Source: Melioribacteraceae bacterium
Lineage (GTDB): Bacteria; Bacteroidota; Ignavibacteria; Ignavibacteriales; Melioribacteraceae
NCBI GenBank assembly: GCA_021739765.1
Contig: JAIPBD010000029.1
Span: forward strand, 1 to 47,458
DNA length: 47,458 nucleotides
Direction: 5' to 3'
The position numbers were made by a program, and so were the translations under genes. The stretch's first letter is position 1. Each line of letters opens with the position of its first letter. This document shows, in pieces, positions 10,618-46,790 of the stretch. Under the pieces are notes generated by a model that was given only the letters and a program-made list of their open reading frames with translations, had not been told where the DNA came from and did no database searches.

Positions 10618-10619
10618 TT

Positions 10620-18261: not shown

Positions 18262-19863
18262 TTAAACTCCGCATTTTTCGGCCCACAATGAATAATCATG
18301 CTTTAATTCTGCTGCAAGATCGGGATACTGATTTATGAGATTGTTAGTTTCGGTCCGATCTGATTTCATATCGTACAATTCCCAATTACCATCATCTACA
18401 GAAACCAATTTCCAATTTCCTTTCCGAATGGCTCTATTTCCGATATGCTCCCAATAAATTTTATCATGAATGTTTTTATTTTCTCCTTTCAGTAAAGGCA
18501 TTAAGGATTTGCCTTCAAGTGGTGTTATACTATTACCTTTGAATTTTGTAGGATAATTTGAATCGGAAATGTCTAAGACAGTCGCCATAATATCAATAAC
18601 GTGCCCCATTTGGTCACTTTTTGATCCGGGTTTTACTTCTCTCGGAAAACGTGCGATTAGAGGGGTAGCTATTCCACCCTCATGAGTATTCTTTTTGTGA
18701 AGTCGAAAAGGAGTGTTGGATGCATTCGACCATGATCTTCCATAAGTCGAGTAAGAATTAACTGTACCAAGCTCCCCGTTCCATCCTCCCATGCCGTCAT
18801 TTCCAAGAGGATGATTTTCGGCGCATCCGCCGTTATCAGATAAAAACAGTATCAAAGTTTCATCCAATTGATTCATATTTTTCAGTTTTTCGATAACTCT
18901 TCCAATATTTGTATCCATTCTTTCAATCTGAGCCGCGTAAATCGCCATTTTGAGATCCATTCTTTCCTTATCCGCAACCTCTTCCCATTCATATGCCTCA
19001 GAATCCTGTTCTGATAATTTCCAATCAGGAGAAATTAATCCCATTTCCAATTGTCTGTTGTATCTTTCACGCCTGAGTTCGGCCCAACCCTTCATATATT
19101 TTCCACGATATTTATCTATATCTTCTGGATATGCATGTAGTGGCCAGTGTGGAGCATTGTAAGCGAGATACATAAAAAATGGCTTTTCACTTTGAGCATG
19201 ATCGGTCAACTGCGAAATTGCTTCATCAGTAAAAGCATCTGTCGAATAAAAATTATTTTTCGGTGGATCGAATAACTCACCATCTTTTGCAAAAACCCTT
19301 TTTAAGCCCTTTTTTTTACTTTTGCTGATATCGAAATAGTTCATTGCTCCGCTAATCAGTCCGTAGTATTTGTCAAATCCTCGATCAACAGGCCAGTGAG
19401 GCCTATTTTCACCGACGTGCCATTTACCCGACATATACGTTTTGTAACCATTCGATTTTAAAACTTCAGCAATTGTTACTCCGTTTTCACTGAGGAAACC
19501 TTGATACGGACCCTTCTCGCTTGGTTCTTTTTGAACCATATTTCCAAGACCAGCTTGGTGAGGATATAATCCCGTGAGCAACGAAGCTCTTGTCGGACAG
19601 CAACGAGCAGCGTTATAGAATTGAGTGAATTTCATTCCTTCACTGGCAAGTTTGTCTAAATTTGGAGTTGATATTTCTCCTCCGTAACATCCGATATCAG
19701 AGAAACCCATATCATCACACATTATTAGAAGAACATTCGGTTTTTTACCTGCTACTTTATTCTCAACAGAACAAGCCGATAACAATCCCGAGGTACCAAG
19801 CGTGATACCTGAGGCTGCGACCAAACTTTTTTTAATAAAATCTCTTCTGTTATTTTTTATCAT
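18262..19863 (-). CDS. Sulfatase, Tat-type lipoprotein
   Basis: This 533-residue type I sulfatase hydrolyses sulfate esters, probably on a glycan. The leader has 'NNRRDFIKKSLVAASG' (twin arginine at 6-7) and then 'LLSAC' (C31), as in Tat-exported lipoproteins. The formylglycine motif C-x-P-x-R is C88-C-P-T-R92 followed by ASLLTG; a second cysteine sits right after the catalytic one. Metal-site residues appear in 'LLIMCDDMG' (D50-D51) and in 'LFLSDNGG', and 'YMSGKWHVGE' is the conserved lysine/histidine segment. It has long insertions near 250-300 ('WAELRRERYNRQLEMG...'). It lies 50 bp after the metallophosphoesterase gene and is the last gene before the 513-bp gap. Maturation needs a formylglycine-generating enzyme or anSME not encoded here. 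Sulfatase function is firm; the subfamily is not assigned. Confidence 0.9.
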   Translation of the reverse strand: MIKNNRRDFIKKSLVAASGITLGTSGLLSACSVENKVAGKKPNVLLIMCDDMGFSDIGCYGGEISTPNLDKLASEGMKFTQFYNAARCCPTRASLLTGLYPHQAGLGNMVQKEPSEKGPYQGFLSENGVTIAEVLKSNGYKTYMSGKWHVGENRPHWPVDRGFDKYYGLISGAMNYFDISKSKKKGLKRVFAKDGELFDPPKNNFYSTDAFTDEAISQLTDHAQSEKPFFMYLAYNAPHWPLHAYPEDIDKYRGKYMKGWAELRRERYNRQLEMGLISPDWKLSEQDSEAYEWEEVADKERMDLKMAIYAAQIERMDTNIGRVIEKLKNMNQLDETLILFLSDNGGCAENHPLGNDGMGGWNGELGTVNSYSTYGRSWSNASNTPFRLHKKNTHEGGIATPLIARFPREVKPGSKSDQMGHVIDIMATVLDISDSNYPTKFKGNSITPLEGKSLMPLLKGENKNIHDKIYWEHIGNRAIRKGNWKLVSVDDGNWELYDMKSDRTETNNLINQYPDLAAELKHDYSLWAEKCGV

Positions 19864-19913
19864 CGCTCAGCCATAAATTTTTATTAAACTCCATTTCATT
19901 AATAAATTCAGAA

Positions 19914-21779
19914 TCACCTCAATTTTATAAAATCAATTTCTTCGAGAGTATCAGGGTTCAGTACTTTCATTTCAACCTTTTCGCCGTCAATAAAAAATAG
20001 GCAAATTGCGTATTGAGTCGAAAACGATGTGGTAAAGTCAGTCCATGGGACTTCGAGTTGAGCCTGATATGGAGCACCTGCTGAACCATTGTTTATTTGA
20101 AAAACCGTTCTTTTTAGCTTTATTCTCTCATATAAATAATCTTCAGGATAAATCGGCGTTTCCGGTCCAATTTCCGTTTTACAATAATTATGTTCATCAC
20201 CTGTTAAAAAGGCGACGAATTTTTGGGATTCGTTTACCGTTATGTTCAGAATTTCGTCTCTTCTTTCCAAAATTCCTTTCTTGGTTTGATTGCCTGCAAT
20301 CCATGGTCTTACCGAATTATCTCCATTGTGCCACATTCCATCTTTAATATGGCCGCTATTTGGAAAAACCGGAGTATGAATCGTGACAAAAATGTGATCG
20401 ATATTTGGATTTTTTTCAAACTTTGTTATTTGCTGTCTCAACCAGTTTAGTTGATTATCCATTATATAACCATGCGGATTTCCACCAATTTCTTTATAAT
20501 CCGGATACCAATAATGTGAATTGAGAACAATCATCGCCACGTTATCATATACGTACGAAAATACATTTTCATCATAACTTGGAAAATCTAACTTGGTCGG
20601 GTCAGGATCATATATTGCCCCATCCTCTGAAAGCGGGCTATTTTTTGGATTAATAAAGTTTTGCCCATAAATCACTTCAGCAGATTCGGTTTCAAACGGG
20701 AAACGATCTATTCTGATAGCCTCCCCATTTTTATCACTACCAAAATCGAATACTATTTTTTCATGATTTCCCACACCGGTGATAATTGGAAAATGATGGG
20801 CAAAGGGAGCAATTACATTCTTCCAATTAATATACTGCAGTTCAGATTCTGAAAGTCTGGTCGGGGCTCCATTTATTAAATCACCGGTGAATTGCATGAA
20901 TCTTGAATCATAAAATGAACTGACTGCCGCGGCTTTTTTCATAATGTATGCATTATTTCCAAACAGATTACGTTCTCCACCACCTCCGTTATGCCTGGAA
21001 TCACTCAAATAGGAAAAGACAAACTTTTCGCGTGATCCTTCAATCGGGGCAGTTTTAAAGGCATAGCTCTGTTTAAGTTCGCCATATTTAATTACATATT
21101 TATAATAAGTTGAAGATTCTAAATTATTTATTTCGAAAACGTGCATGTAGGTTGAGTCTTGATCAGTATAAATTCTCCCGTTTACCACGAGTTCAACTAT
21201 CGATTTTTCATTCGTATTAAAATTTATTGTGCAACTATTTGGAGCTAACAGATTGATAAAAGGTCCTTCGATTATTGTGTTTACAACTTCGAAAGGGCCA
21301 TTCCCGATAAAACTTATTTTGCCGTCGTAAATTATCTCACCGTCAGCATTCGTTATCCTGTAACCGATCGTTCCTTGCTTGTTTTTCTCCCAATTTATCA
21401 TATCATTTTTTCCATTAAGGGAGGAAATATCGATGAATACTCTTCCTTGTTTAATTGGGATAAAATCTTTTCTATAGACTGGCATCGGGTGGTCTGAATC
21501 CGAATAATGTATAAACCCGTAGTGAACAATCCCGGTAATACTTTCATGGAATTTTAATTCGATTCCTCGTTCCATTCCCCTGCCTTCGGCTAAAACTTTA
21601 TCGATCGAGTAAAAGGAATTGTCCTTTTTTGCATAATATTTTGTGCCGTTCATAAGGGCGAATACTTTTCCATTTTCATCAAGCTGTAAATTTGAGTATA
21701 CCGAGGGAACATCAATTTTTGATTGAGCACTTAATATTGATGTTAAAATGAATGTTATTAAACAAATGCATCGTTTCAT
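19914..21779 (-). CDS. Secreted metallophosphoesterase, purple-acid-phosphatase-like
   Basis: This 621-residue protein has a signal peptide (about 1-20). A fibronectin-III/Ig-like domain ending near 'YKYVIKYGELKQSYAFKTAP' (about 245) precedes the catalytic domain, the arrangement of purple acid phosphatases. The dinuclear-metal motifs appear in order: 'YLSDSRHNGGGG' (motif I), 'MQFTGDLINGA' (GD), 'GVGNHEKI' (GNHE), 'VTIHTPVFPNSGH' (H) and 'LTGDEHNYCKTE' (GDEH). Motif I lacks the usual D-x-H or D-x-G form. The family cleaves phosphomono- or diesters. Its position between two sulfatases, and close to inositol genes, suggests dephosphorylation of an inositol-phosphate or a phosphorylated glycan. 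It starts 6 bp after the preceding sulfatase stop, in one transcript with it. Confidence 0.82.
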   Translation of the reverse strand: MKRCICLITFILTSILSAQSKIDVPSVYSNLQLDENGKVFALMNGTKYYAKKDNSFYSIDKVLAEGRGMERGIELKFHESITGIVHYGFIHYSDSDHPMPVYRKDFIPIKQGRVFIDISSLNGKNDMINWEKNKQGTIGYRITNADGEIIYDGKISFIGNGPFEVVNTIIEGPFINLLAPNSCTINFNTNEKSIVELVVNGRIYTDQDSTYMHVFEINNLESSTYYKYVIKYGELKQSYAFKTAPIEGSREKFVFSYLSDSRHNGGGGERNLFGNNAYIMKKAAAVSSFYDSRFMQFTGDLINGAPTRLSESELQYINWKNVIAPFAHHFPIITGVGNHEKIVFDFGSDKNGEAIRIDRFPFETESAEVIYGQNFINPKNSPLSEDGAIYDPDPTKLDFPSYDENVFSYVYDNVAMIVLNSHYWYPDYKEIGGNPHGYIMDNQLNWLRQQITKFEKNPNIDHIFVTIHTPVFPNSGHIKDGMWHNGDNSVRPWIAGNQTKKGILERRDEILNITVNESQKFVAFLTGDEHNYCKTEIGPETPIYPEDYLYERIKLKRTVFQINNGSAGAPYQAQLEVPWTDFTTSFSTQYAICLFFIDGEKVEMKVLNPDTLEEIDFIKLR

Positions 21780-21785
21780 TTTATT

Positions 21786-23204
21786 TTATCTCATTCCAAA
21801 TTGTTTGTTAATATTTTTCCATCTGGCCGAATGAATAATTGGTCTTTCTTCCCCGGCATGCATCATTCTTTGAATAAGCCTCTCAGCTAATTCAGTACGA
21901 ATTTCATCATACGTCGGGTCCTCTACTAAATTATTGATCTCGGACGGATCATTTTCTAGATCATATAAACAATCTTCAACGAATGTATCACTCTCGAAAT
22001 CGTCCCAACCTTCTTTATGTGGAGCCGTAACCGAATACTTCCACCTTTTGGTTCTTATTGCACGGCCCACTTGCGATTCACTTATTTGAACAAATACATC
22101 TTTTTGCCAGTCATATTTATCATTATCGAGTAAGAGCTGCAATGGTTTTCCTTTCATAGATTGCGGCACATTTCTACCTGCCGCTTTAACTACAGTTGGC
22201 GGCAAATCTATTAAACTTACCATCTCATTTACAACTTTTCCTCCTTTGAAGCCCGGACCGTAAATAATTAACGGAACCCTTATAGAGCTTTCATGACAAG
22301 ATCTTTTATACTCATCATTTCTTGTTCGAAAATGAGAACCATGATCGGACACATAAATTACCAGAGTATCTTCGTCCATGTTTAACCGTGCAAGCTCCTT
22401 GCGAATGCGACCCAAGTTATAGTCCAGAGCATTACAACATCCAAGATAATCTGGCATTTCCTTTTCCCAATCGCCCTCATATCTCTTCAGATCATCCGGG
22501 ACTCTGTATTCGGCAAATTTTTCTTTTGAACCTTTTGGTCCTTCATACCTAAAATTATCGTTCTGATGGTGTGGTTCTATGTAAGATAAAAAAAGGAAAA
22601 ATGGGTTAACTTCATCTTTTTGCTCCTTAATATATTCAATCGCCCAATCAGTCAAGACGTCGGCTCTATATTTACCTTTTGTTAGGAATTTTTTATTTCC
22701 ATTCTGATCGAACATATACCCATCATAACTATGGGAAGTGAACTCAAGCACATCGGAGGCCAACCAGAAATCATTATATCCACCACGCTTTTCCGGAGGA
22801 ACAGGCGCATCCCAATAATCTTCGACCGGTCGTCCTTTAATTTTATTCGTCGCTAAATGCCATTTACCTATGTAGGCATTTTTATATCCGCATTCCGATA
22901 GCCAATGCGCCAATGTTTTCTCATCTGGTTTTAGCCCGATTTCATTTCGGAAACAGCCTGTTTCAGTGGCATATTTTCCTGTTTGCAAGCAAGAACGCGT
23001 TGGTCCGCAAACAGGTTGAGCAGTAAATGTATTATGAAATCTTACTCCCTCAGCTGCCATTTGGTCAAGATTCGGGGTTAGATTTTTAAATATTGGCTCA
23101 CCATAACATTCAACTGTATCCCATCGTTGTTGGTCGCTTAAAATGAATAAAATGTTCGTTTTATTTTCATTATTGCTTTCATTTATTTTTTTTGAACTAG
23201 CCAT
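21786..23204 (-). CDS. Sulfatase without signal peptide, behind iolG
   Basis: This is a type I sulfatase of about 472 residues. The formylglycine motif is 'VCGPTRSCLQTGKY' (C66 from the chosen start). Metal and active-site segments are 'ILFILSDQQRWDT', 'AYIGKWHLATNK' and 'VIYVSDHGSHFR'. The DQQ-type N-terminus resembles choline-sulfatase and related S1 groups. A TTG at 23252 overlaps the iolG stop and would add 16 residues. I prefer ATG 23204, which has CGGAAA in front. With either start the N-terminus is polar ('MASSKKINESNNENKTN') with no signal or twin arginine, unlike the other four sulfatases here, so it should act in the cytoplasm. Its position directly after iolG suggests an imported sulfated small molecule as substrate, which is inference. 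Confidence 0.88.
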   Translation of the reverse strand: MASSKKINESNNENKTNILFILSDQQRWDTVECYGEPIFKNLTPNLDQMAAEGVRFHNTFTAQPVCGPTRSCLQTGKYATETGCFRNEIGLKPDEKTLAHWLSECGYKNAYIGKWHLATNKIKGRPVEDYWDAPVPPEKRGGYNDFWLASDVLEFTSHSYDGYMFDQNGNKKFLTKGKYRADVLTDWAIEYIKEQKDEVNPFFLFLSYIEPHHQNDNFRYEGPKGSKEKFAEYRVPDDLKRYEGDWEKEMPDYLGCCNALDYNLGRIRKELARLNMDEDTLVIYVSDHGSHFRTRNDEYKRSCHESSIRVPLIIYGPGFKGGKVVNEMVSLIDLPPTVVKAAGRNVPQSMKGKPLQLLLDNDKYDWQKDVFVQISESQVGRAIRTKRWKYSVTAPHKEGWDDFESDTFVEDCLYDLENDPSEINNLVEDPTYDEIRTELAERLIQRMMHAGEERPIIHSARWKNINKQFGMR

Positions 23205-23244
23205 TTCTGTATTTCCGTTTTTTTCGTATTTCACTAATAGTTTG

Positions 23245-24258
23245 CTATTCAATTTCAGACATTTTTACAGGTCGATTTTCGGTCGCTGACAATTTTGCGG
23301 CCATAGCGATTCTTATCGCTTCAAGTCCGTCCCTGCCTGAAACCGGAGGAATTTTATTATTAAAAACTGATTCACAGAATTCATTTATCTCATTGAGATA
23401 AGACTGTGTATATCTTTGCATAAAAAAGTGAAGGGGCAGCGATTCATGTTTACCATTTTCATCGTAATAAAAGTGATTATCCGCTTTATTATTTTCAGCG
23501 CCCAACATCCCTTTTGAACCAAAGACTTCCAACCTCTGATCATATCCATAAATTGCTTTTCTGCTGTTATCAATAATCACGAGTGTACCATCAACAAATT
23601 TTAGAACGGCAACAGAAGTGTCAAAATCCCCTGCCGTTTTAATTTCCGGATCGACTCGAACCATCCCCTTGCAAAATATTTCGTCCACCTCTGAATTCGT
23701 AATAAACCGCGCCATGTCAAAATCATGAATAACCATATCCATATAAACTCCTCCCGAACCGAGTATATACTCTATCGGCGGAGGTCCCGGATCACGACTG
23801 GTGATCTTCACTATATGAATATCTCCAACTTTGTCATTTTGTATTTCGCCTTTTACTTTGGAAAAATTAGGATCAAATCTCCTGTTGAATCCAACCATAA
23901 ATTTAATTCCGGATGCATCAACTGCAGAAAGCGCTTCTTTAGTTTTTTGAATAGTCATATCGATAGGTTTCTCACAAAAAACATGCTTACCGGCTCTCGC
24001 AGCCTCAATAATTATCTCTGAGTGCGTATCCGTTGATGAGCATATGAGGATCGCATCTAAATTTTTAAGATTGATCAACTCCTTATAGTTTTCGTAAGCA
24101 TGATCAATTGAATACTTTTCTGAGATTGTGGTGGCTAACTCAAAATTTGTATCCGCAATTGCTACAACTTCTGCTATTTGAATCCGTTGCACAATATTTT
24201 CAATATGGACTTGTCCAATTCTTCCGGCACCAATTACACCAATATTTAACTTTTTCAT
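23245..24258 (-). CDS. iolG: Inositol 2-dehydrogenase (Gfo/Idh/MocA family)
   Basis: This 337-residue cytoplasmic oxidoreductase converts myo-inositol to 2-keto-myo-inositol with NAD+, the first step of inositol breakdown. The Rossmann motif GAGRIG is at 10-15, the nucleotide and substrate lysine in 'CEKPID' (K97), and the catalytic D174-x3-H178 in 'YMDMVIHDFD'. 'GFNRRFDPNF' and 'SRDPGPPP' are typical of IolG proteins. Length is normal. It starts 1 bp after iolE with TAGGAATATAAA before the ATG and is the last iol gene of the run. A related dehydrogenase acting on scyllo-inositol or another sugar cannot be excluded by sequence alone, but the iol context makes IolG the best call. Confidence 0.9.
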   Translation of the reverse strand: MKKLNIGVIGAGRIGQVHIENIVQRIQIAEVVAIADTNFELATTISEKYSIDHAYENYKELINLKNLDAILICSSTDTHSEIIIEAARAGKHVFCEKPIDMTIQKTKEALSAVDASGIKFMVGFNRRFDPNFSKVKGEIQNDKVGDIHIVKITSRDPGPPPIEYILGSGGVYMDMVIHDFDMARFITNSEVDEIFCKGMVRVDPEIKTAGDFDTSVAVLKFVDGTLVIIDNSRKAIYGYDQRLEVFGSKGMLGAENNKADNHFYYDENGKHESLPLHFFMQRYTQSYLNEINEFCESVFNNKIPPVSGRDGLEAIRIAMAAKLSATENRPVKMSEIE

Positions 24259-24259
24259 T

Positions 24260-25159
24260 TTATATTCCTAATACTTGAAGATAATCTCTATTTCTCCGGG
24301 CACAGACTTTGGGAGATCCCATCCCAGGAAGAACATCCTGCTCAACAACAATCCAGTCATCGTATCCCCAATTCTTTAGGTAATCCAGAATACTTGAGAA
24401 ATCGACCGCACCTTTACCGAGTTCACAAAAAACACCGTTTTCAACAGACTTAAAATAGTCCCATTCATTAGCTCTCGAATCCTCAACTATTTGGGTGTCA
24501 CAATCCTTAAAGTGAACGTGCCAAATTCTATCCTGATATTTTTTGAGTATGCTTATTGGATCGGATCCGCCAAATCGTAAATGTCCTGAGTCAAAACATA
24601 ATCCTACAAGCTCCGGATTGGTAAATTCCATCAACTTATCAATCTCAGTCTCTGTTTCAATAAATCCACCGCAGTGATGATGAAAAACTGATCGTATGCC
24701 AAATTTGTTCAAAACAGAATCCGCAATATTGTTAACACCGTTTGCAAATATTTTAAATTGTTCGATGTTAAGCGAATGTTCCGGTTTAATTCTCCCCGCG
24801 TATTTTGTTCTTATTTCGTCAGTCCCATTATCATCGGCTAACACAATAAAAGCATTTGTAAATCCGGCTTTGTACATTAATTCAGCCGTTTTTAGAGCTA
24901 CTTTCTCACCTGCCTCATGACAATCTTGGTCTTTGAAATTGACAGGAACAAATGCACCCAGCAATTTTAAATTGCGCTTATTAATCTCAAATTTTAGTTC
25001 TTCCGGGTTTGTGGGCAAGAATCCCCAATCACCCAACTCGGTTCCGATGTATCCTGTTTCCTTAAGTTCATCTAGGAATTGAGGATACTTCGCGGCATCG
25101 CCTTCCAAACCAAATTCCAGAATTCCCCATGAGCAAGGAGCATTAGCAACTTTAATCAT
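24260..25159 (-). CDS. iolE: Myo-inosose-2 dehydratase
   Basis: About 299 residues forming an AP-endonuclease-type TIM barrel. IolE removes water from 2-keto-myo-inositol to give 3D-(3,5/4)-trihydroxycyclohexane-1,2-dione. 'ANAPCSWGILEF' at the start, 'GYIGTELGDWGFLP', 'HHHCGGFIETETEI', 'GLCFDSGHLRFGG' and 'WHVHFKDCD' are the hallmark strands with metal-binding His and Glu. A TTG at 25174 would add five residues, but ATG 25159 has GGAG nine bases upstream and gives the usual IolE N-terminus, so I use it. It lies between iolA (18 bp) and iolG (1 bp) in an unbroken iol operon. Confidence 0.92.
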   Translation of the reverse strand: MIKVANAPCSWGILEFGLEGDAAKYPQFLDELKETGYIGTELGDWGFLPTNPEELKFEINKRNLKLLGAFVPVNFKDQDCHEAGEKVALKTAELMYKAGFTNAFIVLADDNGTDEIRTKYAGRIKPEHSLNIEQFKIFANGVNNIADSVLNKFGIRSVFHHHCGGFIETETEIDKLMEFTNPELVGLCFDSGHLRFGGSDPISILKKYQDRIWHVHFKDCDTQIVEDSRANEWDYFKSVENGVFCELGKGAVDFSSILDYLKNWGYDDWIVVEQDVLPGMGSPKVCARRNRDYLQVLGI

Positions 25160-25177
25160 CGTTCTTGTCTCCAATTA

Positions 25178-26644
25178 TTAAAATTTCCGACTCCATTCCT
25201 TAGGCCATCTTTCGATAACCACTTTTGTTTGCGTGAAAAACTCCACAGCATGTTTACCTTGTCCATGCAAATCTCCATAAAAACTTTCTCGCCAACCGCT
25301 AAATGGAAAAAATGCCATTGGCGCAGCGATTCCAATATTGATACCAACATTTCCCGTATTCGCTTCATATCTAAACTTCCTGGCCGAAGAACCACTTGAG
25401 GTAAAAATACTGGCAGCATTTCCATATCTTCCCGAGTTTACAATTTTAATGGCATCTTCAATAGTTTCAATCGAAATAATACCCATAACGGGTCCGAAAA
25501 TTTCAGTTTGAAAAACTTCACCATCCGGATTTACATCCGCAATTATAGTCGGTTTCATGTAGTATCCGCTCATCAAAATACTTCCACTTAATTTCCTCCC
25601 ATCAAGCACAAGTTTTCCGCCTTCGGCAATACTCTTATCAACTAGTGAATAAACTCGTTTTTTACTTTCTTCGGTAATTAAAGAACCCATTTCAACATTT
25701 TCGTCCAAACCATATCCGACAATTTTGTTTGAAGCTGAGTCAATAAGCGAATCTATCATTTTCGCTTTTGATTCACCTACGGTTATAACTGTTGAGGTTG
25801 CAAGACATCTTTGACCGGCACATCCGTAAACACTATCACTTATAATTTTTGAAGTTACATCAATATCCGCGTCAGGTAGTATTATTACCGGGTTCTTCGC
25901 TCCACCTTGAGCCTGAACTCTTTTACCGTATTTAGCGGATTCGCTGTATATATATTGGGCGACATCCGAAGAACCGACAAAACTGATCGCTTTAATTTGT
26001 GGATGCCTCAATATCGCGTCGACACTTTCTTTCCCGCCATTTACTAGATTTAACACACCTTTTGGGAACCCCGCCTCTTCGATGAGCTCGAATACTTTTT
26101 GCATTGTGAAGGGTACTTTTTCAGAGGGCTTCACGAGATATGTATTACCACATGCCACAGCGTACGGTAAAAACCAGAAAGGAATCATTCCGGGAAAATT
26201 AAACGGCGTAATACAAGCTGCCACACCGAGTGGTTGTCTAATCATGAATTCATCAATTCCTGAAGAGATGTCCTCTGAAAATTCACTTTGCATCATCATA
26301 GGAATTCCGCATGCGACTTCCACATTTTCGATCGCTCTTTTTAATTCACCTTTAGATTCGGCAATAGTTTTACCGCATTCTATTGTGATCGTTCTAGCAA
26401 GACTTTCGATATTTTCATCAAGTAAGACCTTTAACTTAAATAAATACTGAATCCTCTCTGTTGCGGGGGTTGCCCTCCAAGATGGGAACGCCGATTGCGC
26501 AGAAATGACAGCATGATGCACTTCTTCCTCAGATGATAATACTACTTCACCTATTATTTCATCTTTACCGGGATCAACCACTTTCAACCTCTGACTTGAT
26601 TGAGTCACCCATTGCCCATCGATGTAATTTCTCGCTAATTTCAT
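25178..26644 (-). CDS. iolA: Methylmalonate-semialdehyde / malonate-semialdehyde dehydrogenase (CoA-acylating)
   Basis: This 488-residue aldehyde dehydrogenase carries out the last Iol step, oxidising malonate semialdehyde to acetyl-CoA with release of CO2. Length and motifs match the MmsA/IolA group: 'YIDGQWV' at the start, '[22 protein letters not shown]', 'KPSEKVP', '[10 protein letters not shown]', the catalytic cysteine C280 in 'GCAGQRCLA', and 'EIFGPVMGI'. It sits between iolD and iolE with 27-bp and 18-bp spacers and TAGGA before its ATG. A separate valine-catabolism role is possible for this family, but the neighbours point to inositol. Confidence 0.93.
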
Positions 26645-26671
26645 TATATGCAGTCCTATCTTCTAAATATT

Positions 26672-28534
26672 TTATAGATAATACTTCTGTTTTGATTTAT
26701 TGAACTTATATCTTTCATATGCGCTTTTAACCGAATCAATTTCGGACACTTCAGCGACCGGCACTTCCCACCACGCATAACCATCAACTCGATGCTCCAA
26801 ATCTGTTTCTATAAAAATTACCGTAGTTTTGGTTTTAGATTTAGATTCAACTAAAGATTTTTTAAATGATTCAATATCTGTACATGTAAAAACTTCAGCT
26901 CCCAGACTTTTTGCATTTTTAACAAAATCTACAGGTAGAGTTTTACCATCCAATTGATCTGTCTGAGAGTTTCGATATCTGTATTTGGTCCCGAATCTTT
27001 TATTTCCGAGAGATTCGGATAATCCACCGATACTTGCATAACCATTATTATTAAGAAGTATTATTGTGAGTTTATAATTTTCTTGAATGGATGTAATAAT
27101 TTCATGATTCATCATTAAGTAACTGCCATCACCAAGCATAATGTATACTTCACGCTCGGAATCGGCTATTTTAACACCTAATCCGCCGGCGATTTCATAT
27201 CCCATACATGAGTAACCATACTCGAGATGAAATCCTTTAGGGTTTGCGGTTCTCCAAAGTTTGTGTAAATCACCTGGTAAACTTCCGGCAGCACAAACAA
27301 TTACATCCTTAGATTCGGCAAAATTATTAAGGGCACCAATTACACTTCCTTGAGCAGCGGGAATACCATGATCATAACTATAAATTTGATCTACTTTTTT
27401 ATTCCATTCTTTTCTCAAGGACTCACATTTATTTGAATAATCATGCTCAACACGAAAATCTCCTAAAATGCCGGATAATTCAGAAATCGTAACTTTTGCA
27501 TCCCCAACCAATTTTAAGGCTGAATGTTTCGCTGAATCAAAATCTGTAATATTGATATTTAAGAACTTCACTTCGGGATTTTGAAATGCAGATTTAGAAG
27601 CAGTCGTAAAATCCGAATATCGCGTTCCAATCCCGATTATCAAATCAGCTTCTTCCGCAATTTCAACAGCCCCGGGCGTTCCGGTAACTCCGGCCGCTCC
27701 TAAATTGAGTTCATGCGTATAATGTAATGAACCCTTTCCGGCAAAAGTTTCGGCAACGGGTATTCCGGTGCGCTTAACAAAATCAGAAAGAGTTTGTGTT
27801 GCACCACTGTAAATAACTCCCCCGCCCGAAATAATTAGTGGTTTTCGCGCTTCTTTAATTAATTTAGCCGCTCTTTTGATCGCATTTAAATCCGGCCGAG
27901 GTCTATCAATTAACCAGATTCTTTTCTTGAATAACTCAAGTGGGAAATCGAAGACCTCTGTTTGAACGTCTTGAGGTAGTGCAATTGTTACAGTTCCTGT
28001 ATCTGCTTGCGAGGTCAGCACTCTTATCGCTTCCGGTAAAGAGGTGATCAACTGTTCCGGCCGATTTATTCGATCCCAATATTTTGATATAGGTTTAAAG
28101 CAATCATTCACCGAAATATCTTGAAGGTTCTCCGATTCCAATTGTTGAAGAACCGGTGCCACATTCCTGCGAGCAAAGATATCTCCGGGTAGTAAGAGTA
28201 CAGGAAGTCTATTGATGGTAGCGCCGGCAGCGGCTGTAATCATATTAGTCGCTCCGGGACCGATTGAAGATGTACAAGCAAATGTTTGCAAACGATTCTT
28301 CATCTTAGTAAATGCAGCTGCGGTATGAACCATTGATTGTTCATTCCGCGTTTGATAAAATTTAAATTCTGGGAACTGCTGCAAAGCTTGTCCAATACCC
28401 GCAACATTTCCGTGCCCAAATATTCCAAAACAACCTGCAAAAAATTTGTTATCTTTTCCGTCTCTTTCAACAAATTGATTGTCTAGAAATTTAATTAATG
28501 CTTGAGCTGTAGCTAACTTAATATTTTGATTCAT
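26672..28534 (-). CDS. iolD: 3D-(3,5/4)-trihydroxycyclohexane-1,2-dione hydrolase
   Basis: This 620-residue thiamine-diphosphate enzyme opens the cyclohexane-dione ring to 5-deoxy-glucuronate. The N-terminal pyrimidine-binding domain has 'GHGNVAGIGQAL' and 'RNEQSMVHTA' (E65, probably the cofactor-activating glutamate), 'STSSIGPGATNMITAA'-like sequence follows, and the C-terminal cofactor site is 'GDGSYLMMNHE' (468-478) closing with 'NNNGYASIGG'. 'RYRNSQTDQLDG' and 'WWEVPVAEVSE' near the end are characteristic of IolD rather than of acetolactate synthase. Length is normal. It starts 12 bp after iolC. Confidence 0.95.
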   Translation of the reverse strand: MNQNIKLATAQALIKFLDNQFVERDGKDNKFFAGCFGIFGHGNVAGIGQALQQFPEFKFYQTRNEQSMVHTAAAFTKMKNRLQTFACTSSIGPGATNMITAAAGATINRLPVLLLPGDIFARRNVAPVLQQLESENLQDISVNDCFKPISKYWDRINRPEQLITSLPEAIRVLTSQADTGTVTIALPQDVQTEVFDFPLELFKKRIWLIDRPRPDLNAIKRAAKLIKEARKPLIISGGGVIYSGATQTLSDFVKRTGIPVAETFAGKGSLHYTHELNLGAAGVTGTPGAVEIAEEADLIIGIGTRYSDFTTASKSAFQNPEVKFLNINITDFDSAKHSALKLVGDAKVTISELSGILGDFRVEHDYSNKCESLRKEWNKKVDQIYSYDHGIPAAQGSVIGALNNFAESKDVIVCAAGSLPGDLHKLWRTANPKGFHLEYGYSCMGYEIAGGLGVKIADSEREVYIMLGDGSYLMMNHEIITSIQENYKLTIILLNNNGYASIGGLSESLGNKRFGTKYRYRNSQTDQLDGKTLPVDFVKNAKSLGAEVFTCTDIESFKKSLVESKSKTKTTVIFIETDLEHRVDGYAWWEVPVAEVSEIDSVKSAYERYKFNKSKQKYYL

Positions 28535-28546
28535 TATTATTCCGAT

Positions 28547-29560
28547 TTAAAATCCACCATTATTTTCAACAAACTCTAATGCTTCTTTTTCATACGGCAT
28601 AAAGTTTGCGCAACCGTGCCGAGTTACGACAATTGCTCCGGAAGCATTTCCCATCCTGATAGATTGATGCCAATTCCAGCCTTTCAGATAACCGTAAATA
28701 AAACCACTCGCGAACGCGTCGCCGGCACCGAGTATGTTGGTTACTTGAACCGGAAAGCCCTGCACAAGCTCGCTAAATCCATCTTTATGATGATAGGAGG
28801 CACCCTTTTCACCTCGTTTTACAATTAGAATTTCCGGACCCATTTTCAATATTTCAGCTATTGCGAGATCGATATCTCCGGTTATTTCCGGTGCGGAAAT
28901 CTGCTGATCTTTTATCGAAACTTGTTCTAACCGGGAAAGCATAGTGGCCTTAATTTCTTCCTCAGTACCTATAGCAATTTTTACTTTTGATAAAAGTGCC
29001 CTTGACATAACTCCAAAAGCACGAATGTCATCCCATTGGTCAGCTCTAAAATCCAAATCGAGCAGGACCGGAATGCCATTGTTGTAGGCTTGTTCAGCCG
29101 CGAAGAATGCCGAAGATCTACTGGGATCTCGGCTTAGCGCGGTTCCGGAAATTTCAAGGAGGCGAGCATTTTCAATATTAGCTTTAATTACATCATCAAT
29201 AGTAATTTCAATATCCGCGCAATTATCACGATAATAAACAAGCGGGAATTTATCCGGTGGTTCAATTCCTAAAATTACCGCGCTTGTACGTGCGGTTTTT
29301 ACGATAGGAATAAACTTAGTTTCAACGTTTTCCTTCTTAAGAAACTTGAGAATAAAACTGCCTACTTTATCTTCACCAAGTCCCGTAATAAGTGCGGATT
29401 TTAGTCCCAGCCGACTGCATCCAACGGCAATATTTAAAGGTGATCCGCCAACGTACGCTGCAAAGTTTGTGATGTCCTCGAATCTACTACCAATATCGTT
29501 CGAATAGAGGTCAATAGATGAACGTCCAAAAGTTATGATATCATATTTTTTAGTCTGCAT
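28547..29560 (-). CDS. iolC: 5-dehydro-2-deoxygluconokinase
   Basis: About 337 residues of the PfkB/ribokinase family. IolC phosphorylates 5-dehydro-2-deoxygluconate with ATP. 'YDIITFGRSSIDLYS' and 'YVGGSPLNIAVGCSRLGL' form the substrate lid region, and 'NILGAGDAFASGF' holds the catalytic aspartate (D281). An upstream ATG at 29599 would add 13 residues, but ATG 29560 gives the usual N-terminus. With it the gene overlaps the end of iolB by 11 bp, showing coupled translation. The aldolase for its product (IolJ) is not found next to it. Confidence 0.92.
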   Translation of the reverse strand: MQTKKYDIITFGRSSIDLYSNDIGSRFEDITNFAAYVGGSPLNIAVGCSRLGLKSALITGLGEDKVGSFILKFLKKENVETKFIPIVKTARTSAVILGIEPPDKFPLVYYRDNCADIEITIDDVIKANIENARLLEISGTALSRDPSRSSAFFAAEQAYNNGIPVLLDLDFRADQWDDIRAFGVMSRALLSKVKIAIGTEEEIKATMLSRLEQVSIKDQQISAPEITGDIDLAIAEILKMGPEILIVKRGEKGASYHHKDGFSELVQGFPVQVTNILGAGDAFASGFIYGYLKGWNWHQSIRMGNASGAIVVTRHGCANFMPYEKEALEFVENNGGF

Positions 29561-30452: not shown

Positions 30453-30470
30453 TATCTAAACTCCATTTCG

Positions 30471-30491
30471 CAATTCGTTAATATCGAATTG
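30471..30491. promoter_or_regulatory. Inverted repeat before iolB (operator or attenuator candidate)
   Basis: CAATTCG and CGAATTG are perfect 7-bp arms separated by seven AT-rich bases, lying 19 bases before the iolB start and 37 bases after the symporter stop. No T-run follows on either strand, so it does not look like an intrinsic terminator. A regulator binding site for an Iol repressor, or an RNA hairpin that sets the ratio of transporter to enzymes, are both possible. The regulator is unknown. Confidence 0.35.
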
Positions 30492-30527
30492 AGTTTTATT
30501 TTTCAACTAAAACATCATATCTGTTAA

Positions 30528-32717: not shown

Positions 32718-32751
32718 ATTAAGAATCTTCCATTACAGATTTTATCAACCA

Positions 32752-34131: not shown

Positions 34132-34153
34132 TAATTTTCTCCAAACTAACTTT

Positions 34154-35638: not shown

Positions 35639-35663
35639 TTTAGTCACTATCCTCTTTTTAGTT

Positions 35664-37061
35664 TTATTGTGCGCTCTCAATTACTTCCGGGATTTGTGCA
35701 TTAATTTCATTTCTCCATTTTTTCAATTTATTCCATAACTTTTTTGTTTTTTCAGGTAATTGCTTTGAAAGATCAACTGTTTCGCTAATATCTTCTTTAA
35801 GATTAAACAGTTCTACAGGATTCGATTTATCCGTCAGTGATCTTTCGTACCATTCAATTAATTTATAATCACCCTCTCGAATAACTGAGCATGGTCCTTC
35901 GCCGTTGCCATGGTAATGCGGATAATTCCAATACAGTGTGTTTCTATCAATTTTTTCTTTCCCTGAAATAAACGGTACGAGACTGATCCCATCCAAATCA
36001 GCCGGTTTATTTTTAATATCAGCTATTTCAAGGAAGGTTGGGAAAAAGTCATATGTATTTACTAAAGCGTCGGTTTCAGTTCCAGCTTTAACTTTTCCCG
36101 GCCAACTAATTATTAAAGGAACTCGAATACCGCCCTCGTACAAACTGGCTTTACCACTTCTGAACGGAGCATTGCTTGCTTCTTTTAATAAATTTCCGTT
36201 GTCGGAATAAAAAATGAAAACCGTGTTATCTGTTAAACCCAATTTGTCAAGTTTATCCATAACATCCCCAACATGATTATCCAGTGTTTCAATCATTGCA
36301 CCGAAAACAGGATTATTTCTGGGATCATTTGAATTGGCTTTTTGTTTGTACTTCTCAATTAATTTTGCCTTTTCCATCAAAGGATTGTGAATAGTATTAT
36401 GCGAGATGCCGAGGAAAAACGGTTTGTTTTTATTCTTCTCAATAAATTTTAACGAGAGTTCATTTAACAATTTTACATTGTGACCGTCATTTTCTGGAGT
36501 CTGCCATTCTTGTCCCAATTTATTTGAGGGTTTATAAGTTACAAACACCTCATCAAATCCTTGTTTATCGGGGTTATGCTCCAAGCTGATAGGCGGATTT
36601 TTTTCAATACTTAAATGCCATTTCCCAAACCATGCTGTTGAATAATCATGCTGCTTTAGAATTTCGGCAAAAGTAGTTTCTTCTAATGGTAAATGCTTCT
36701 GCCATTTCGGATGATTAAGTGGTGCCCCTTCCGGTGGATCGTTTCCTTTAATAAAATCAGTTACATGTGTTTTAGCCGGAAATTTCCCTGTCATCAAACT
36801 TGCTCTTGTCGGGGAGCAAACAGGTGCCGCTGAATAAGCTTGTGTAAATTTCATTCCGCGCGCGGCTAATCGGTCAATATTTGGTGTTTCGTAATAATCG
36901 CTACCATAGCAACCGAGTTGAGTGCTACCCATATCATCAGCCATAATGAATACGATGTTTGGAGACTTATTCTTGAACTCCGAGCAACCCAATACCGGTA
37001 AGCAAAACGCAGCTGCTGAAATAGATGCTAATCTTATAAATTCCCTTCGATCGTAACTCAT
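35664..37061 (-). CDS. Sulfatase, Tat-type lipoprotein
   Basis: About 465 residues. The leader 'MSYDRREFIRLASISAAAF...LGC' carries a twin arginine at 5-6 and a lipobox cysteine at 26. The formylglycine motif is C82-S-P-T-R ('VCSPTRASLMTGKF'). 'IVFIMADDMG', 'TAWFGKWHLSIE' and 'VFIFYSDNGNLL' supply the metal and active-site segments. 'ETLDNHVGDVMDKLDKLG' is the usual helix before the second metal loop. An ATG at 37085 would add eight residues ahead of the Tat leader and lacks a ribosome site, so I use 37061. It resembles glycan exo-sulfatases in length. It is 87 bp after the neighbouring sulfatase in an AT-rich gap and is followed at 25 bp by the PhoD-like gene. Confidence 0.9.
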   Translation of the reverse strand: MSYDRREFIRLASISAAAFCLPVLGCSEFKNKSPNIVFIMADDMGSTQLGCYGSDYYETPNIDRLAARGMKFTQAYSAAPVCSPTRASLMTGKFPAKTHVTDFIKGNDPPEGAPLNHPKWQKHLPLEETTFAEILKQHDYSTAWFGKWHLSIEKNPPISLEHNPDKQGFDEVFVTYKPSNKLGQEWQTPENDGHNVKLLNELSLKFIEKNKNKPFFLGISHNTIHNPLMEKAKLIEKYKQKANSNDPRNNPVFGAMIETLDNHVGDVMDKLDKLGLTDNTVFIFYSDNGNLLKEASNAPFRSGKASLYEGGIRVPLIISWPGKVKAGTETDALVNTYDFFPTFLEIADIKNKPADLDGISLVPFISGKEKIDRNTLYWNYPHYHGNGEGPCSVIREGDYKLIEWYERSLTDKSNPVELFNLKEDISETVDLSKQLPEKTKKLWNKLKKWRNEINAQIPEVIESAQ

Positions 37062-37148
37062 TTTTTTATCAAATTCTCTTATCATATTATTTTTTACAAT
37101 TCGTTATATTTTATTTATATTTTATATTTTTTAGTCTTATAATAAATT

Positions 37149-38576
37149 TCAATATTTATCCACTTCATACTGTTTTTGCAGATCTGCTAATTGTGTTTTT
37201 AACACAGATATCACATTAGCGTAACTTTTATCATTATATAAATTGTTTAGCTCGTTGGGATCATTATCAAGATCGAATAGTTCCCATTGATCTAAATCTT
37301 CATAAAAATGAATCAACTTGTATCTTTTAGTTCTGATACCGTAATGTTTCCGGACGGAGTGAGAAGCTGGGAAAGCATAGTAGTGATAATAGACCGCATC
37401 CCGCCAATCATCAGGGTTCTTGCCTGTCAACAATTTTCTAAGCGATTTACCTTGCATCGAAGCGGGTATTTCTATATTTGCGAAATCGAGTAAAGTTTCC
37501 GCAAAATCAATATTTTGAACTAAATTTTCATTCTCACTTCCCTTCTCAATTATTCCGGGATAACTGACTATAAATGGCATTCTCAAAGATTCTTCGTACA
37601 TGAATCTTTTATCAAACCAACCGTGTTCCCCAAGAAAAAATCCTTGATCGGATGTATAAATAATAATAGTATTTTCCCGGAGACCTGTTTCATCCAGGTA
37701 GTTAATCAACCGACCGACGTTATCATCCAGCGAAGCGACGCACCTTAGATAATCTTTAATATATCGTTGATACTTCCATTCCTTTAATGATTGTCCGGAT
37801 AATCCATCAGGGTAAGGCTTTTTAACATCCGCTACCGTAAGATGTTTTGCAATTGTCATTTCTTGCAATCGGGCTGCATCGCTGCGAGTCGAATAATCGT
37901 CATTAAAAGTCTCTGGTTCAGAGATCGTTTCATTCTCGTAAAGTTTTGCGTGTTTCTCATCTGGGAACCATTTTCTATGCGGTGCTTTATGCTGTGAAAT
38001 CAATAAAAAGGGTTTTTCTTTATCTCTGTTTTTTAACCATTCTATTGATTTATCAGTGATAAGATCGGTGACATAACCCTTATGTTTATTAGTTTCTCCC
38101 ATCTCAATGAATTCCGGGTCGAAGTAATCTCCTTGACCCGGCAGGATGCTGTAATAGTCAAAACCCGTCGGTTCACTCTTTAAATGCCATTTACCGATCA
38201 TAGCAGTCTGATAACCATTTTCGCGTAATAATTTCGGATAGGTCATTTGCGAACCGTCAAATGATTGTTTGTTATCCATAACTCCATTTTTATGACTAAA
38301 CTTTCCGGTCAGTATCGCTGCTCTGCTTGGCGAACAAATGCTGTTTGTGCAAAAACAGTTCTTAAAAATCATTCCTTCTTTTGCCAAACGATCAATATTC
38401 GGTGTTTTATTAATTTTTGAACCGTACGCACTAATAGCTTGGGTGGCATGATCGTCGCTCATGATAAAAATAATATTTGGTCTTTCTTCATTGAAAGAGC
38501 AGGCTGTCAACCAAGCCGGTAATGATGCCAAAGCCAATCCGGCACTGCTATTTTTTATGAATTTTCGTCTATTCAT
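37149..38576 (-). CDS. Sulfatase, Tat-type lipoprotein
   Basis: This 475-residue type I sulfatase has the leader 'MNRRKFIKNSSAGLALASLPAWLTAC' (twin arginine at 3-4, lipobox C26). The formylglycine motif is C81-S-P-S-R ('ICSPSRAAILTGKF'). 'IIFIMSDDHATQAISAYG' and 'TAMIGKWHLKSE' match the group of heparan/mucin-type and related N- or O-sulfatases that begin with DDH, and 'IIYTSDQGFFLGEHGWFDKRFMYEESLRMPFIV' is characteristic of it. The C-terminus has 'YYHYYAFPASHSVRKHYGIRTKRYKLI', the usual substrate-facing tail. The leader is very like that of the sulfatase at 45036-46298, which lies on the other side of the beta-helix array. It starts 11 bp after that array. Confidence 0.92.
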   Translation of the reverse strand: MNRRKFIKNSSAGLALASLPAWLTACSFNEERPNIIFIMSDDHATQAISAYGSKINKTPNIDRLAKEGMIFKNCFCTNSICSPSRAAILTGKFSHKNGVMDNKQSFDGSQMTYPKLLRENGYQTAMIGKWHLKSEPTGFDYYSILPGQGDYFDPEFIEMGETNKHKGYVTDLITDKSIEWLKNRDKEKPFLLISQHKAPHRKWFPDEKHAKLYENETISEPETFNDDYSTRSDAARLQEMTIAKHLTVADVKKPYPDGLSGQSLKEWKYQRYIKDYLRCVASLDDNVGRLINYLDETGLRENTIIIYTSDQGFFLGEHGWFDKRFMYEESLRMPFIVSYPGIIEKGSENENLVQNIDFAETLLDFANIEIPASMQGKSLRKLLTGKNPDDWRDAVYYHYYAFPASHSVRKHYGIRTKRYKLIHFYEDLDQWELFDLDNDPNELNNLYNDKSYANVISVLKTQLADLQKQYEVDKY

Positions 38577-38587
38577 AACGTTATTAA

Positions 38588-40189: not shown

Positions 40190-40190
40190 T

Positions 40191-43384: not shown

Positions 43385-43386
43385 TT

Positions 43387-44985: not shown

Positions 44986-45035
44986 GTTCCACTCCTTTCT
45001 TATATTTCTCAATCTATGTTTACTGATGTTAAAAT

Positions 45036-46298
45036 TCATTTTGTAGAGTCCAATTCCGCTAAATATTCTGTTAACTCTCGTCGCATTTTTTGGGATATCT
45101 GAGTATCAGTTTCCGGATAATAAGGTTTATCCTCATTCGGATCTTCGCTAACATTAAATAATTTGGTATCTCTATATAATTTCCATTCTTTGTTTCTGAT
45201 CCAAGCCTCACCGTGCCATTCTTGATAAGCCCATTTACGTGAAACCGAATCTTCATTACTTAACTGTCTTTTAAAACTTTTCCCATCAATTTTTAAGTTC
45301 TTAGGTTTTTCTTGTTCGGCAAGTCCTAAAAAAGTTGGAAAGAAGTCTGTAAAATCAATCAGGTTTTCATTCACTGAACCTGGTTTGAGTTTACCTTTCC
45401 AATTAACTACAAGTGGCACGTGAGTTCCTGTATCTTTCATACTTTTTTTCCCGCCCGGAATTTTCCGATCGCCCATATTTGAGATAATACCCTCCGGAGT
45501 TCCGTTATCAGTTGTAAAAATTATAATCGTATCCTCCGCTAATCCGCTATTGTTCAACGCTTCAGTGAACTCACCAATTATTCGATCAAGATTTGCAACC
45601 ATATCAGCATAGCTTTGATACTCACCATTCGGTCCAACCGGCTCCTTATATTTGCCTCCGGTTTTCGCAAAATGTGTAAGCAGCATCGGATAATAAAGAA
45701 AGAATGGCTGATCTTTTGATCGATGCATGAATTCTATTGAAAAATCCTGCAATACATCCGGGCCATATCTATCGGAAATATTTTCTTTTACTTTTCCGTT
45801 CTCCCAAATCCACGGATTCCAGTATCTCGGACCTTCATGCCAACCCCAGCAACAGTATTCATCAAAACCTTTTCTGTTAATAAATGATGGATCGTCACCA
45901 ATTTTTCCGAATTGCCACTTCCCGACTATGGCTGTTCTATAACCAGCATTTTGAAGCAACGATGAGATTGTAGTTTCATTCTCGGGTAAAACTCCCCATT
46001 CTTCTCCGGTTCGAAAAGTGTATCGACCTGTTAGAAGTTGAGTTCGAGATGGACTGCAAACAGGTGCGCTATAGCAGTAAGTAAATTTCATTCCAGTCGC
46101 CGCCAGCTTATCAATATTTGGTGTATTATATGAAGTTCCACCATTGAAACCGGGCACTTCATATCCCATATCATCTACAAGAAATAAAACTATATTTGGT
46201 TTCTTATTACTCTGAATTGAGCAATTGTTCAACCAAATCGGAAGCGACGATAACGCCAATCCGGTCGCTGTATTTTTAATGAAGTCTCTTCTTTTCAT
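45036..46298 (-). CDS. Sulfatase, Tat-type lipoprotein (short)
   Basis: At 420 residues this is the shortest sulfatase in the window. Leader 'MKRRDFIKNTATGLALSSLPIWLNNC' has a twin arginine at 3-4 and lipobox C26. The formylglycine motif is C81-S-P-S-R ('VCSPSRTQLLTGRY'). 'IVLFLVDDMGYEVPGFNGG', 'TAIVGKWQFGKIG' (the usual GKWH has Q in place of H) and 'IIIFTTDNGTPEG' are the remaining core segments. The missing histidine of GKWH is odd and may alter activity or specificity. It lies 50 bp ahead of the beta-helix array and 140 bp after the DUF202 gene, and is probably the first gene of this transcript. Confidence 0.88.
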   Translation of the reverse strand: MKRRDFIKNTATGLALSSLPIWLNNCSIQSNKKPNIVLFLVDDMGYEVPGFNGGTSYNTPNIDKLAATGMKFTYCYSAPVCSPSRTQLLTGRYTFRTGEEWGVLPENETTISSLLQNAGYRTAIVGKWQFGKIGDDPSFINRKGFDEYCCWGWHEGPRYWNPWIWENGKVKENISDRYGPDVLQDFSIEFMHRSKDQPFFLYYPMLLTHFAKTGGKYKEPVGPNGEYQSYADMVANLDRIIGEFTEALNNSGLAEDTIIIFTTDNGTPEGIISNMGDRKIPGGKKSMKDTGTHVPLVVNWKGKLKPGSVNENLIDFTDFFPTFLGLAEQEKPKNLKIDGKSFKRQLSNEDSVSRKWAYQEWHGEAWIRNKEWKLYRDTKLFNVSEDPNEDKPYYPETDTQISQKMRRELTEYLAELDSTK

Positions 46299-46765: not shown

Positions 46766-46790
46766 GGAGCGGAAGTAGAACTTCCGCTCC
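46766..46790 (-). terminator. Strong intrinsic terminator of the T9SS-type gene
   Basis: GGAGCGGAAG and CTTCCGCTCC are perfect 10-bp arms around a 5-base loop. On the minus strand the stem begins 25 bases after the stop codon of the partial secreted protein and is followed by TTAATTAAAA. GC content of the stem is far above the surroundings. This is the clearest terminator in the window and marks the right boundary of the cluster. Confidence 0.75.

Follow-up and report, generated by a model that had tools for sequence, protein, structure and literature searches.

Enzymes that open plant glycosyl inositol phosphorylceramides (GIPCs) are known. Botrytis GIPC-PLC1 and plant GIPC-PLD cut GIPC and free inositol (phosphate) glycans, and the accessible parts of the two reports do not describe how the glycan or the inositol is degraded afterwards (PMC11496612, PMC12498067). 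We found no comparable bacterial system described in the open-access literature, in which subscription papers and preprints are mostly lacking. Here we analyze a 47,458-nucleotide stretch of DNA from a Melioribacteraceae bacterium (GenBank assembly GCA_021739765.1, contig JAIPBD010000029.1), hereafter the window, in which a glycoside hydrolase family 28 (GH28) gene, a sodium symporter (SSS) gene and an inositol catabolic (iol) gene set lie in one run. The GH28 protein belongs to a clade that we call GH28c, and we are confident that this clade is linked to inositol catabolism. On balance we favor the view that the locus is a glycosyl-inositol utilization system, with the head group of plant GIPC or of a close algal or protist relative as its most likely substrate.

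As in the bacterial iol operon (the TIGR04377-04382 set), IolB, C, D, A, E and G are encoded in a single run, but here the set is flanked by the GH28/symporter pair and by sulfatases, and there is no IolJ, IolR or IolT-type gene among the 28 window open reading frames (ORFs) scanned. The search for IolJ, a class II aldolase, covered these 28 ORFs; a class II aldolase adjoins iolB in a related genome, G042, and by similarity also in G080, G110 and G205. Bacteroidota polysaccharide utilization loci resemble the system in their co-directional carbohydrate-active enzymes, their type IX secretion system (T9SS)-type tails and their TonB receptors, the last found in G042, G080, G110 and G205. The window differs from them in including a central inositol pathway and in having no SusC/SusD (SusCD/TonB) pair among its scanned ORFs, the window being cut at both contig ends. 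In lysosomal heparan breakdown HGSNAT acetylates, after which NAGLU (GH89) cuts, and a DUF5009/HGSNAT-like gene likewise adjoins a GH89 gene in G042, G110, G185, G311 and L114. There, however, the pair occurs with inositol or GH28 genes, and both of its genes are absent from the window. Finally, GH28c shares with the GH28 polygalacturonases and rhamnogalacturonidases (3jur, 5olp, PglB, BT4146/4153/4155) its family match and paired Asp motifs, but it forms a distinct clade with G-I-Q in place of R-L-K, is leaderless in the window and is tied to inositol genes. The gene families are known ones; their combination is conserved and specific, and we found no description of it for bacteria in the open-access literature.

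The window is one entire contig (C37) of a 4.54-Mb genome (G000) that is 99.8% complete, so both ends of the locus are cut. All 28 ORFs scanned against Pfam lie on the minus strand, and 26 of them match a family at 0.001; three plus-strand ORFs of 122-144 amino acids, outside the Pfam scan, overlap larger minus-strand ORFs. Neither an Rfam scan nor a tRNA scan found anything in the window. Between 46298 and 18262 every gene is on the minus strand with intergenic gaps of -50 to 75 bp, in the order sulfatase, four paralogs with T9SS-type tails, two sulfatases, PhoD, GH28, SSS symporter, iolB, iolC, iolD, iolA, iolE, iolG, sulfatase, phosphoesterase-like gene and sulfatase (Table 1). A sequence-only reading of this DNA had described such a one-strand run of five sulfatases, two phosphoesterases, a GH28, a symporter and iolBCDAEG, and the family matches and spacing confirm it. 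That reading also had GH106, GH115, GH92, GH2 and GH28 genes following the run. They are present on the minus strand at 356-17748 (GH106, a protein without family, two GH115, GH92, GH2, two GH28), but 513 bp set them off from the iol run. Because this gap holds a terminator-like hairpin directly past the end of the 18262 gene and an 11-of-12 promoter match, the GH106 block is probably a transcription unit of its own. Absent from the same reading were the four tandem T9SS-tailed paralogs, the 425-aa protein at 12714-13991 and the missing signal peptide of the GH28 at 32752-34131.

Table 1. Features of the window, in coordinate order
Feature	Position	Strand	Family evidence and remarks
Two GH28, leaders by eye, not GH28c type	356-1858, 1886-3394	-	PF00295, E 1e-15 and 2e-15
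GH2 with malectin domain	3395..6154	-	PF02836 E 3e-30, PF11721
GH92 alpha-mannosidase-like	6267..8651	-	PF07971 E 3e-143; 53-57% to GH92 near GH28c in L041, L078, L082, L108
Two GH115-like genes	8659-10617, 10620-12638	-	PF15979; 34-41% to GH115 near GH28c in L078, L082, L108
425-aa protein, leader by eye, between GH115 and GH106	12714..13991	-	no Pfam or NCBIfam family
GH106-like alpha-L-rhamnosidase	13984..17748	-	PF17132 E 1e-35
Sulfatase 1	18262..19863	-	PF00884 E 3e-63
Exported metallophosphoesterase-like protein, leader by eye	19914..21779	-	no Pfam family at 0.001; sub-threshold PF16656 (purple-acid-phosphatase)/PF09423 (PhoD)
Sulfatase 2	21786..23252	-	PF00884 E 3e-54
iolG	23245..24258	-	TIGR04380 442 bits, cut-off 355
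iolE (divergent)	24260..25174	-	TIGR04379 204 bits, below cut-off 290
iolA / mmsA	25178..26644	-	TIGR01722 (MMSDH subfamily) 544 bits, cut-off 448.5
iolD	26672..28534	-	TIGR04377 904 bits, cut-off 715; sole above-cut-off match in genome
iolC	28547..29599	-	TIGR04382 379 bits, cut-off 300; true start probably downstream of listed TTG
iolB	29550..30452	-	TIGR04378 343 bits, cut-off 205
SSS symporter, 729-aa type, proposed glycosyl-inositol importer	30528..32717	-	PF00474; 59% to G042 and G080 orthologs
GH28c, a GH28 without leader, proposed to hydrolyze glycosyl-inositol (GlcA-inositol)	32752..34131	-	PF00295 E 2.7e-29; orthologs in 17/395 genomes
PhoD-like phosphoesterase, lipoprotein-type leader by eye	34154..35680	-	PF09423 E 2e-21
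Sulfatase 3	35664..37085	-	PF00884 E 5e-61
Sulfatase 4	37149..38576	-	PF00884 E 7e-57
Four tandem paralogs, 529-550 aa, T9SS-type tails	38588-40189, 40191-41798, 41795-43384, 43387-45039	-	tails PF18962/PF13860, some below cut-off
Sulfatase 5	45036..46298	-	PF00884 E 2e-50

Five of the six window Iol proteins pass a family cut-off (IolB, IolC, IolD and IolG their own, IolA that of its subfamily). IolE scores below its cut-off and is therefore considered divergent; it is 55-63% identical to the IolE in the same position in G042, G080, G110, G205 and L043. A plasmid search with IolD returned 1466 records, all below 60% identity.

GH28 enzymes cleave alpha-linked uronic acids, and to our knowledge every known GH28 bond involves a uronic acid or rhamnose. 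GH28c keeps the paired Asp motifs of the family in 24 of 24 aligned sequences. At the R-L-K position of 3jur all 24 have G-I-Q, which sits within an R-G/A-x-G-I-Q-N/H-R-D-E-G stretch that is likewise found in all 24. Arg-x-Lys is the substrate motif of GH28 polygalacturonases, and G-I-Q in its place would be in keeping with a non-uronate leaving group. The best NCBIfam match of the window protein, the PglB equivalog, reaches 246.6 bits and not the cut-off of 600. Orthologs in G042 and G080 are 57% and 53% identical, and in 395 genomes sampled evenly from the phylum the edge of the clade lies between E values of 2e-195 or less (17 genomes) and the next match at 1e-105 (21 genomes at a limit of 1e-80). 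The frame upstream of the window GH28c encodes no hydrophobic leader.

The linkage to inositol catabolism appeared both in close relatives and across the phylum. In the window genome and 97 relatives, iolD passed its family cut-off in three of 98 genomes: the window genome, G042 (same family, other genus) and G080 (same order, other family). Both relatives have iolBCDAEG flanked by orthologs of the window GH28 and symporter, together with two GH92 genes, a LacI regulator, a TonB receptor and relatives of the window's tandem paralogs. By similarity the same gene set is found in the class-level relatives G110 and G205, and the core genes are present in a Bacteroidales metagenome-assembled genome (L043). 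A three-sequence GH28 alignment was then scanned over species genomes, and the best 80 of 139 relatives, mostly from Flavobacterium, Pedobacter and Chitinophagaceae, were kept. Unsought, a neighbor of about 295 aa turned up in 58 of these best 80 loci (counting the duplicates L044 and L107), and its representative is myo-inositol oxygenase (MIOX; PF05153, E 9e-109). MIOX is an oxygen-using enzyme unrelated to Iol that converts inositol to glucuronate.

Within the 395-genome sample, GH28c occurs in 17 genomes, MIOX in 28 and iolD in 19, the latter two lists being without overlap. In 16 of the 17 an inositol gene shares the contig of GH28c, at a distance of about 10 kb or less (MIOX in 13, iolD in 3, never both); counted by genus this holds for 8 of 9, and for 7 of 8 families. 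The genome-level hypergeometric probability of 2e-15 ignores kinship, and one genus contributes 8 of the 17 genomes. As a control, 84 GH28 ORFs were collected from the 13 MIOX genomes (from 85 rows, one being a second stretch of the same ORF). Those within 10.4 kb of MIOX were the 13 GH28c and 11 of a single companion type (one each in 11 genomes), while the other 60 lay away from it. In the wider set of GH28c-centered stretches (at most about 21 kb long, less where a contig ends), MIOX was found in 60 of 84 and iol genes in 6, never both, so that 66 have either; these counts exclude the duplicate contigs L044 (= G042) and L107 (= G080) and include the query genomes' self-matches. When 19 named genomes were re-searched, 16 of them picked because neither gene had been seen near GH28c, 11 had MIOX, 5 had iolD, 3 had neither and none had both. 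The iolD of the L042 genome is a fragment at a contig end, below the cut-off, and L043, whose iol genes were already known, is among the five.

The converse association is looser. GH28c is missing from 15 of 28 MIOX loci and 16 of 19 iolD loci, and the 16 GH28c-free iolD stretches contain no GH28, GH92, HGSNAT-like or GH89 match, although at 3.9 to 20 kb the shortest of them say little. One of the 16 (G250) has a match to phosphatidylinositol-specific phospholipase C (PI-PLC). Of the 15 GH28c-free MIOX stretches, 12 have no glycosidase, phosphoesterase or sulfatase match of these kinds. The sequence-only reading had proposed to ask whether the iol and hydrolase genes are separate in related genomes as a rule: for iol genes in general they are, whereas the GH28c clade itself is tied to inositol catabolism. 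Among the GH28c-free MIOX stretches we also noted L166, with GH92 and a sulfatase, and L167 (G185:C57:3200-23199), where SusC, SusD, GH89, HGSNAT-like, another GH28 and MIOX stand in a row. That GH28 is 30% identical to the window 356-1858 protein, and a different GH28 clade may stand in for GH28c there.

The location of GH28c covaries with the type of symporter beside it. The leaderless form accounts for 14 of 84 sequences, all 14 with the 729-aa symporter type, whereas a 545-aa symporter stands beside 59 GH28c, every one of which has a signal peptide; the remaining 11 have a signal peptide and neither symporter type in reach. Leaders were called by a rule combining N-terminus position and hydrophobicity rather than a trained predictor, with L074, L083, L110 and L111 set by reading the N-termini and G110, G205, G311 and L114 assigned from them by hand. 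Most simply, the 729-aa type would take up the substrate of GH28c and the 545-aa type its product.

What that substrate might be is suggested by the companion genes. Plant GIPC heads, according to the accessible parts of the sources, include N-acetylglucosamine (GlcNAc)-α1,4-glucuronic acid (GlcA)-α1,2-inositol-1-phosphoceramide (PMC8099651, PMC6151786) and a mannose (Man)-α1,4-GlcA-α1,2-inositol variant (PMC12498067). They also occur with free glucosamine (GlcN) and with outer galactose (Gal), arabinose (Ara) and Man (PMC8099651) or fucose (Fuc; PMC12201980). Bacteroidetes, in the accessible part of one report, make inositol lipids of their own (PMC9246714). The 84 GH28c-centered stretches contain HGSNAT-like genes (45), GH2 (42), GH51 (36), GH29/95 (30), GH92 (22) and phosphoesterases (20), more rarely GH27 (10), GH89 (5), GH115 (3) and sulfatases (2), and SusC/TonB and SusD genes in 32 and 23. 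In the phosphoesterase count, 17 stretches have a calcineurin-like family (PF00149 for the representative), the window and G042 are self-matches, and the labels in G042 (PHP-like, no Pfam family) and L108 were given by eye. GH92 would fit Man, and an HGSNAT-like protein with GH89 would fit GlcN and GlcNAc; GH2/GH27, GH51 and GH29/95 fit Gal, Ara and Fuc, PI-PLC or phosphatases fit the phosphate, and MIOX or Iol fits the inositol. Of the 84 stretches, 63 have GH92, HGSNAT-like or GH89 genes, singly or in combination. In G042 the run that holds GH28c also carries, about 14-26 kb from it, GH89 (E 1e-126), PI-PLC-C1 (E 3e-121) and an HGSNAT-like gene; G311 has GH92, an ORF without assignment, GH89, HGSNAT-like, SusC, SusD and GH28c in a row; and in G278 a PI-PLC gene is separated from MIOX by 7 kb and from GH28c by 16 kb. 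PI-PLC was rejected as a constant part: it occurs in 17 of 50 genomes, and in 7 of the 17 GH28c genomes of the sample, but just three genomes, G042, G278 and G250, have it at about 10 kb or less from MIOX or iolD. A PNGase F-type gene lies at the edge of the G042 inositol-glycan locus (L037:10489-11613).

Once these assignments are made, GlcA-inositol is the sole bond left without an enzyme and GH28c the enzyme left without a bond, from which we infer that GH28c cuts it. Outside the cell and in the periplasm, phosphoesterases and exo-glycosidases would trim an inositol-containing glycan head group, probably of the form X-α1,4-GlcA-α1,2-myo-inositol-1-phosphate, with X being Man, GlcN or GlcNAc and with outer Gal, Ara or Fuc. 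The 729-aa Na+ symporter would import the small glycosyl-inositol that remains, and cytoplasmic GH28c would release myo-inositol from it together with a sugar, which is most likely D-glucuronate. IolGEDBCA would degrade the inositol, and the uronate would pass to UxaC, encoded elsewhere in the genome; UxaC was found in all five iol+GH28c genomes searched. In many relatives, GH28c with a signal peptide would act before import, the 545-aa symporter would take up the product, and MIOX would stand in place of Iol. The roles of the sulfatases and T9SS-type proteins in such a system are conjectural. The sequence-only reading had named GIPC-type inositol glycans as one example of a substrate. They are the best fit to the evidence, and the iol, GH28, symporter and GH92 genes do belong together; that GIPC is the substrate, with GH28c as a uronosyl-inositol hydrolase, is a predicted activity to which we would give close to even chances.

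Several observations weigh against this interpretation. A candidate enzyme for each bond of the GIPC head is found only when loci are pooled. The window itself contributes phosphoesterases, iol genes, GH92, GH115 and GH28c. Its 28 scanned ORFs include none for HGSNAT-like, GH89, GH51 or PI-PLC proteins, and its genome gave no PI-PLC-C1 match at 1e-15. GH92, HGSNAT-like and GH89 are all missing from 21 of the 84 stretches, GH89 is rare (5 of 84), and "HGSNAT-like" is our own label for Pfam DUF5009 (28.4 bits against a cut-off of 25). GH28c occurs with neither MIOX nor iolD anywhere in the genome in G311, the exception among the 17, and in the genomes of L074, L108 and L118. The leader/symporter switch is a single event on the tree (quick method, support 92), so the correlation is not replicated evidence. 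GH115 cleaves α1,2-GlcA in xylan and could share or take the GlcA-inositol step, competing with GH28c in loci that contain both. The five sulfatases, GH106 and one phosphoesterase are unexplained by known plant GIPCs. As an aside on L074 (PBYL01000031.1), the record is named Thalassovita sp., but its SusC/SusD-like genes (by eye), GH28c and SSS are arranged as in Bacteroidota, and the contig is perhaps mis-binned. Bacteroidetes, in the accessible part of one report, make inositol lipids of their own (PMC9246714).

Two other substrates would account for part of the data, and we regard each as improbable. One is a glycosylphosphatidylinositol (GPI)-anchor or fungal-type glycan with a Man-GlcN-inositol or Man-inositol core, on which GH92, HGSNAT-like and GH89 would act while Iol or MIOX degraded the inositol. 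These enzymes suit a GPI core equally well, judging from the core structures in the accessible part of PMC6151786, and PI-PLC and PNGase F are present in G042. Such a glycan, however, leaves no role for GH28c, the one glycosidase that keeps company with inositol genes, as it does in 16 of 17 genomes; known GH28 bonds involve uronic acid or rhamnose. The other, to which we give a similarly low probability, is a plant-debris locus that co-regulates the use of pectin, with GH28c acting on it, and of free inositol, which phytate or galactinol would simply supply at the same time. GH28 is indeed a pectin family, the best NCBIfam match is a polygalacturonase (247 bits against 600), and MIOX feeds a uronate pathway shared with pectin. 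But the Iol route bypasses uronate, only two GH28 types and not the other 60 ORFs lie near MIOX, the leaderless enzyme pairs with one symporter type, and GH92, HGSNAT-like and GH89 are not known as pectin enzymes.

Quite unlikely is the main alternative of the sequence-only reading, two unrelated loci placed side by side: the GH28c-free iolD loci, the window sulfatases without counterpart in other iol+GH28c stretches and the separate promoter-like and terminator-like sites of the GH106 block and iol run speak for it, but the combination of GH28c, SSS and iol is found again in G042, G080, G110, G205 and L043, and MIOX takes the place of iol in other genomes. Chance juxtaposition is rejected for this core; it may apply to the sulfatases, to 19914-21779 and to a large part of the GH106 block.

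If glycosyl-inositol utilization is correct, these loci would represent a so far undescribed digestion of the inositol-sugar head groups of plant-type membrane lipids. We consider it a tentative, somewhat less than even possibility that in GH28c we see the first clade of enzymes acting on the uronosyl-inositol bond, and that across this phylum its loci form a widespread undescribed route for the full dismantling of plant GIPC heads, in which Iol and MIOX are interchangeable endings and the key step has a cytoplasmic and a periplasmic version. The window's five sulfatases would then point to undescribed sulfated inositol glycolipids. GH28c occurs in named Flavobacterium and Pedobacter strains, where the idea is directly testable, and it could yield an enzyme tool for GIPC glycan analysis.

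All five window sulfatases keep the Cys of C-x-P-x-R in their translations. That sulfate generally belongs to the substrate was not borne out: sulfatases occur in only two of the 84 GH28c-centered stretches, the window and L115. No counterparts of the five sulfatases, GH106 or 19914-21779 were found in other iol+GH28c loci. A sulfated, perhaps algal, inositol glycan is a possible substrate of the window locus; literature on sulfated inositol phosphorylceramides offered no support, the matches listed all concerning sulfated polysaccharides or glycans in their accessible parts. PhoD was rejected as a conserved part, with a homolog at 1e-30 in 5 of 49 other genomes and on an inositol-gene contig only in G241, where it is 38-42% identical and lies beside MIOX; a Protein Data Bank (PDB) search with it gave one weak alkaline phosphatase match. 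The 19914-21779 protein was rejected likewise (of 49 genomes, the 48 besides its own gave no match at 1e-20), and PDB searches with it and with the tandem paralogs found no relatives. A sulfatase lies near MIOX in G154 and G241, with PhoD as well only in G241. There, MIOX, SSS, PhoD, sulfatase, an ORF without assignment, SusD and SusC form one run without GH28 (L171, G241:C5:56700-76699), possibly a second kind of inositol, phosphate and sulfate locus.

The tandem paralogs (38588-45039) make up nearly a quarter of the run. The other three are 52-62% identical to the 43387-45039 protein, and relatives in the G042 locus (one) and G080 locus (two) are 28-29% identical to it. Weak DUF4957 similarity appeared in the two that were scanned loosely, and the paralogs are possibly beta-helix surface proteins. 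As the GH115 and GH92 genes of the second block are related to GH28c neighbors in L078, L082 and L108, part of that block probably belongs to the system. At the other end of the window, a gene at 46439-46756 (minus strand) for a 105-aa membrane-type protein, DUF202/YidH-like by eye, lies between sulfatase 5 and a truncated T9SS-tailed protein, with a hairpin near 46770-46800, 3' of the truncated gene.

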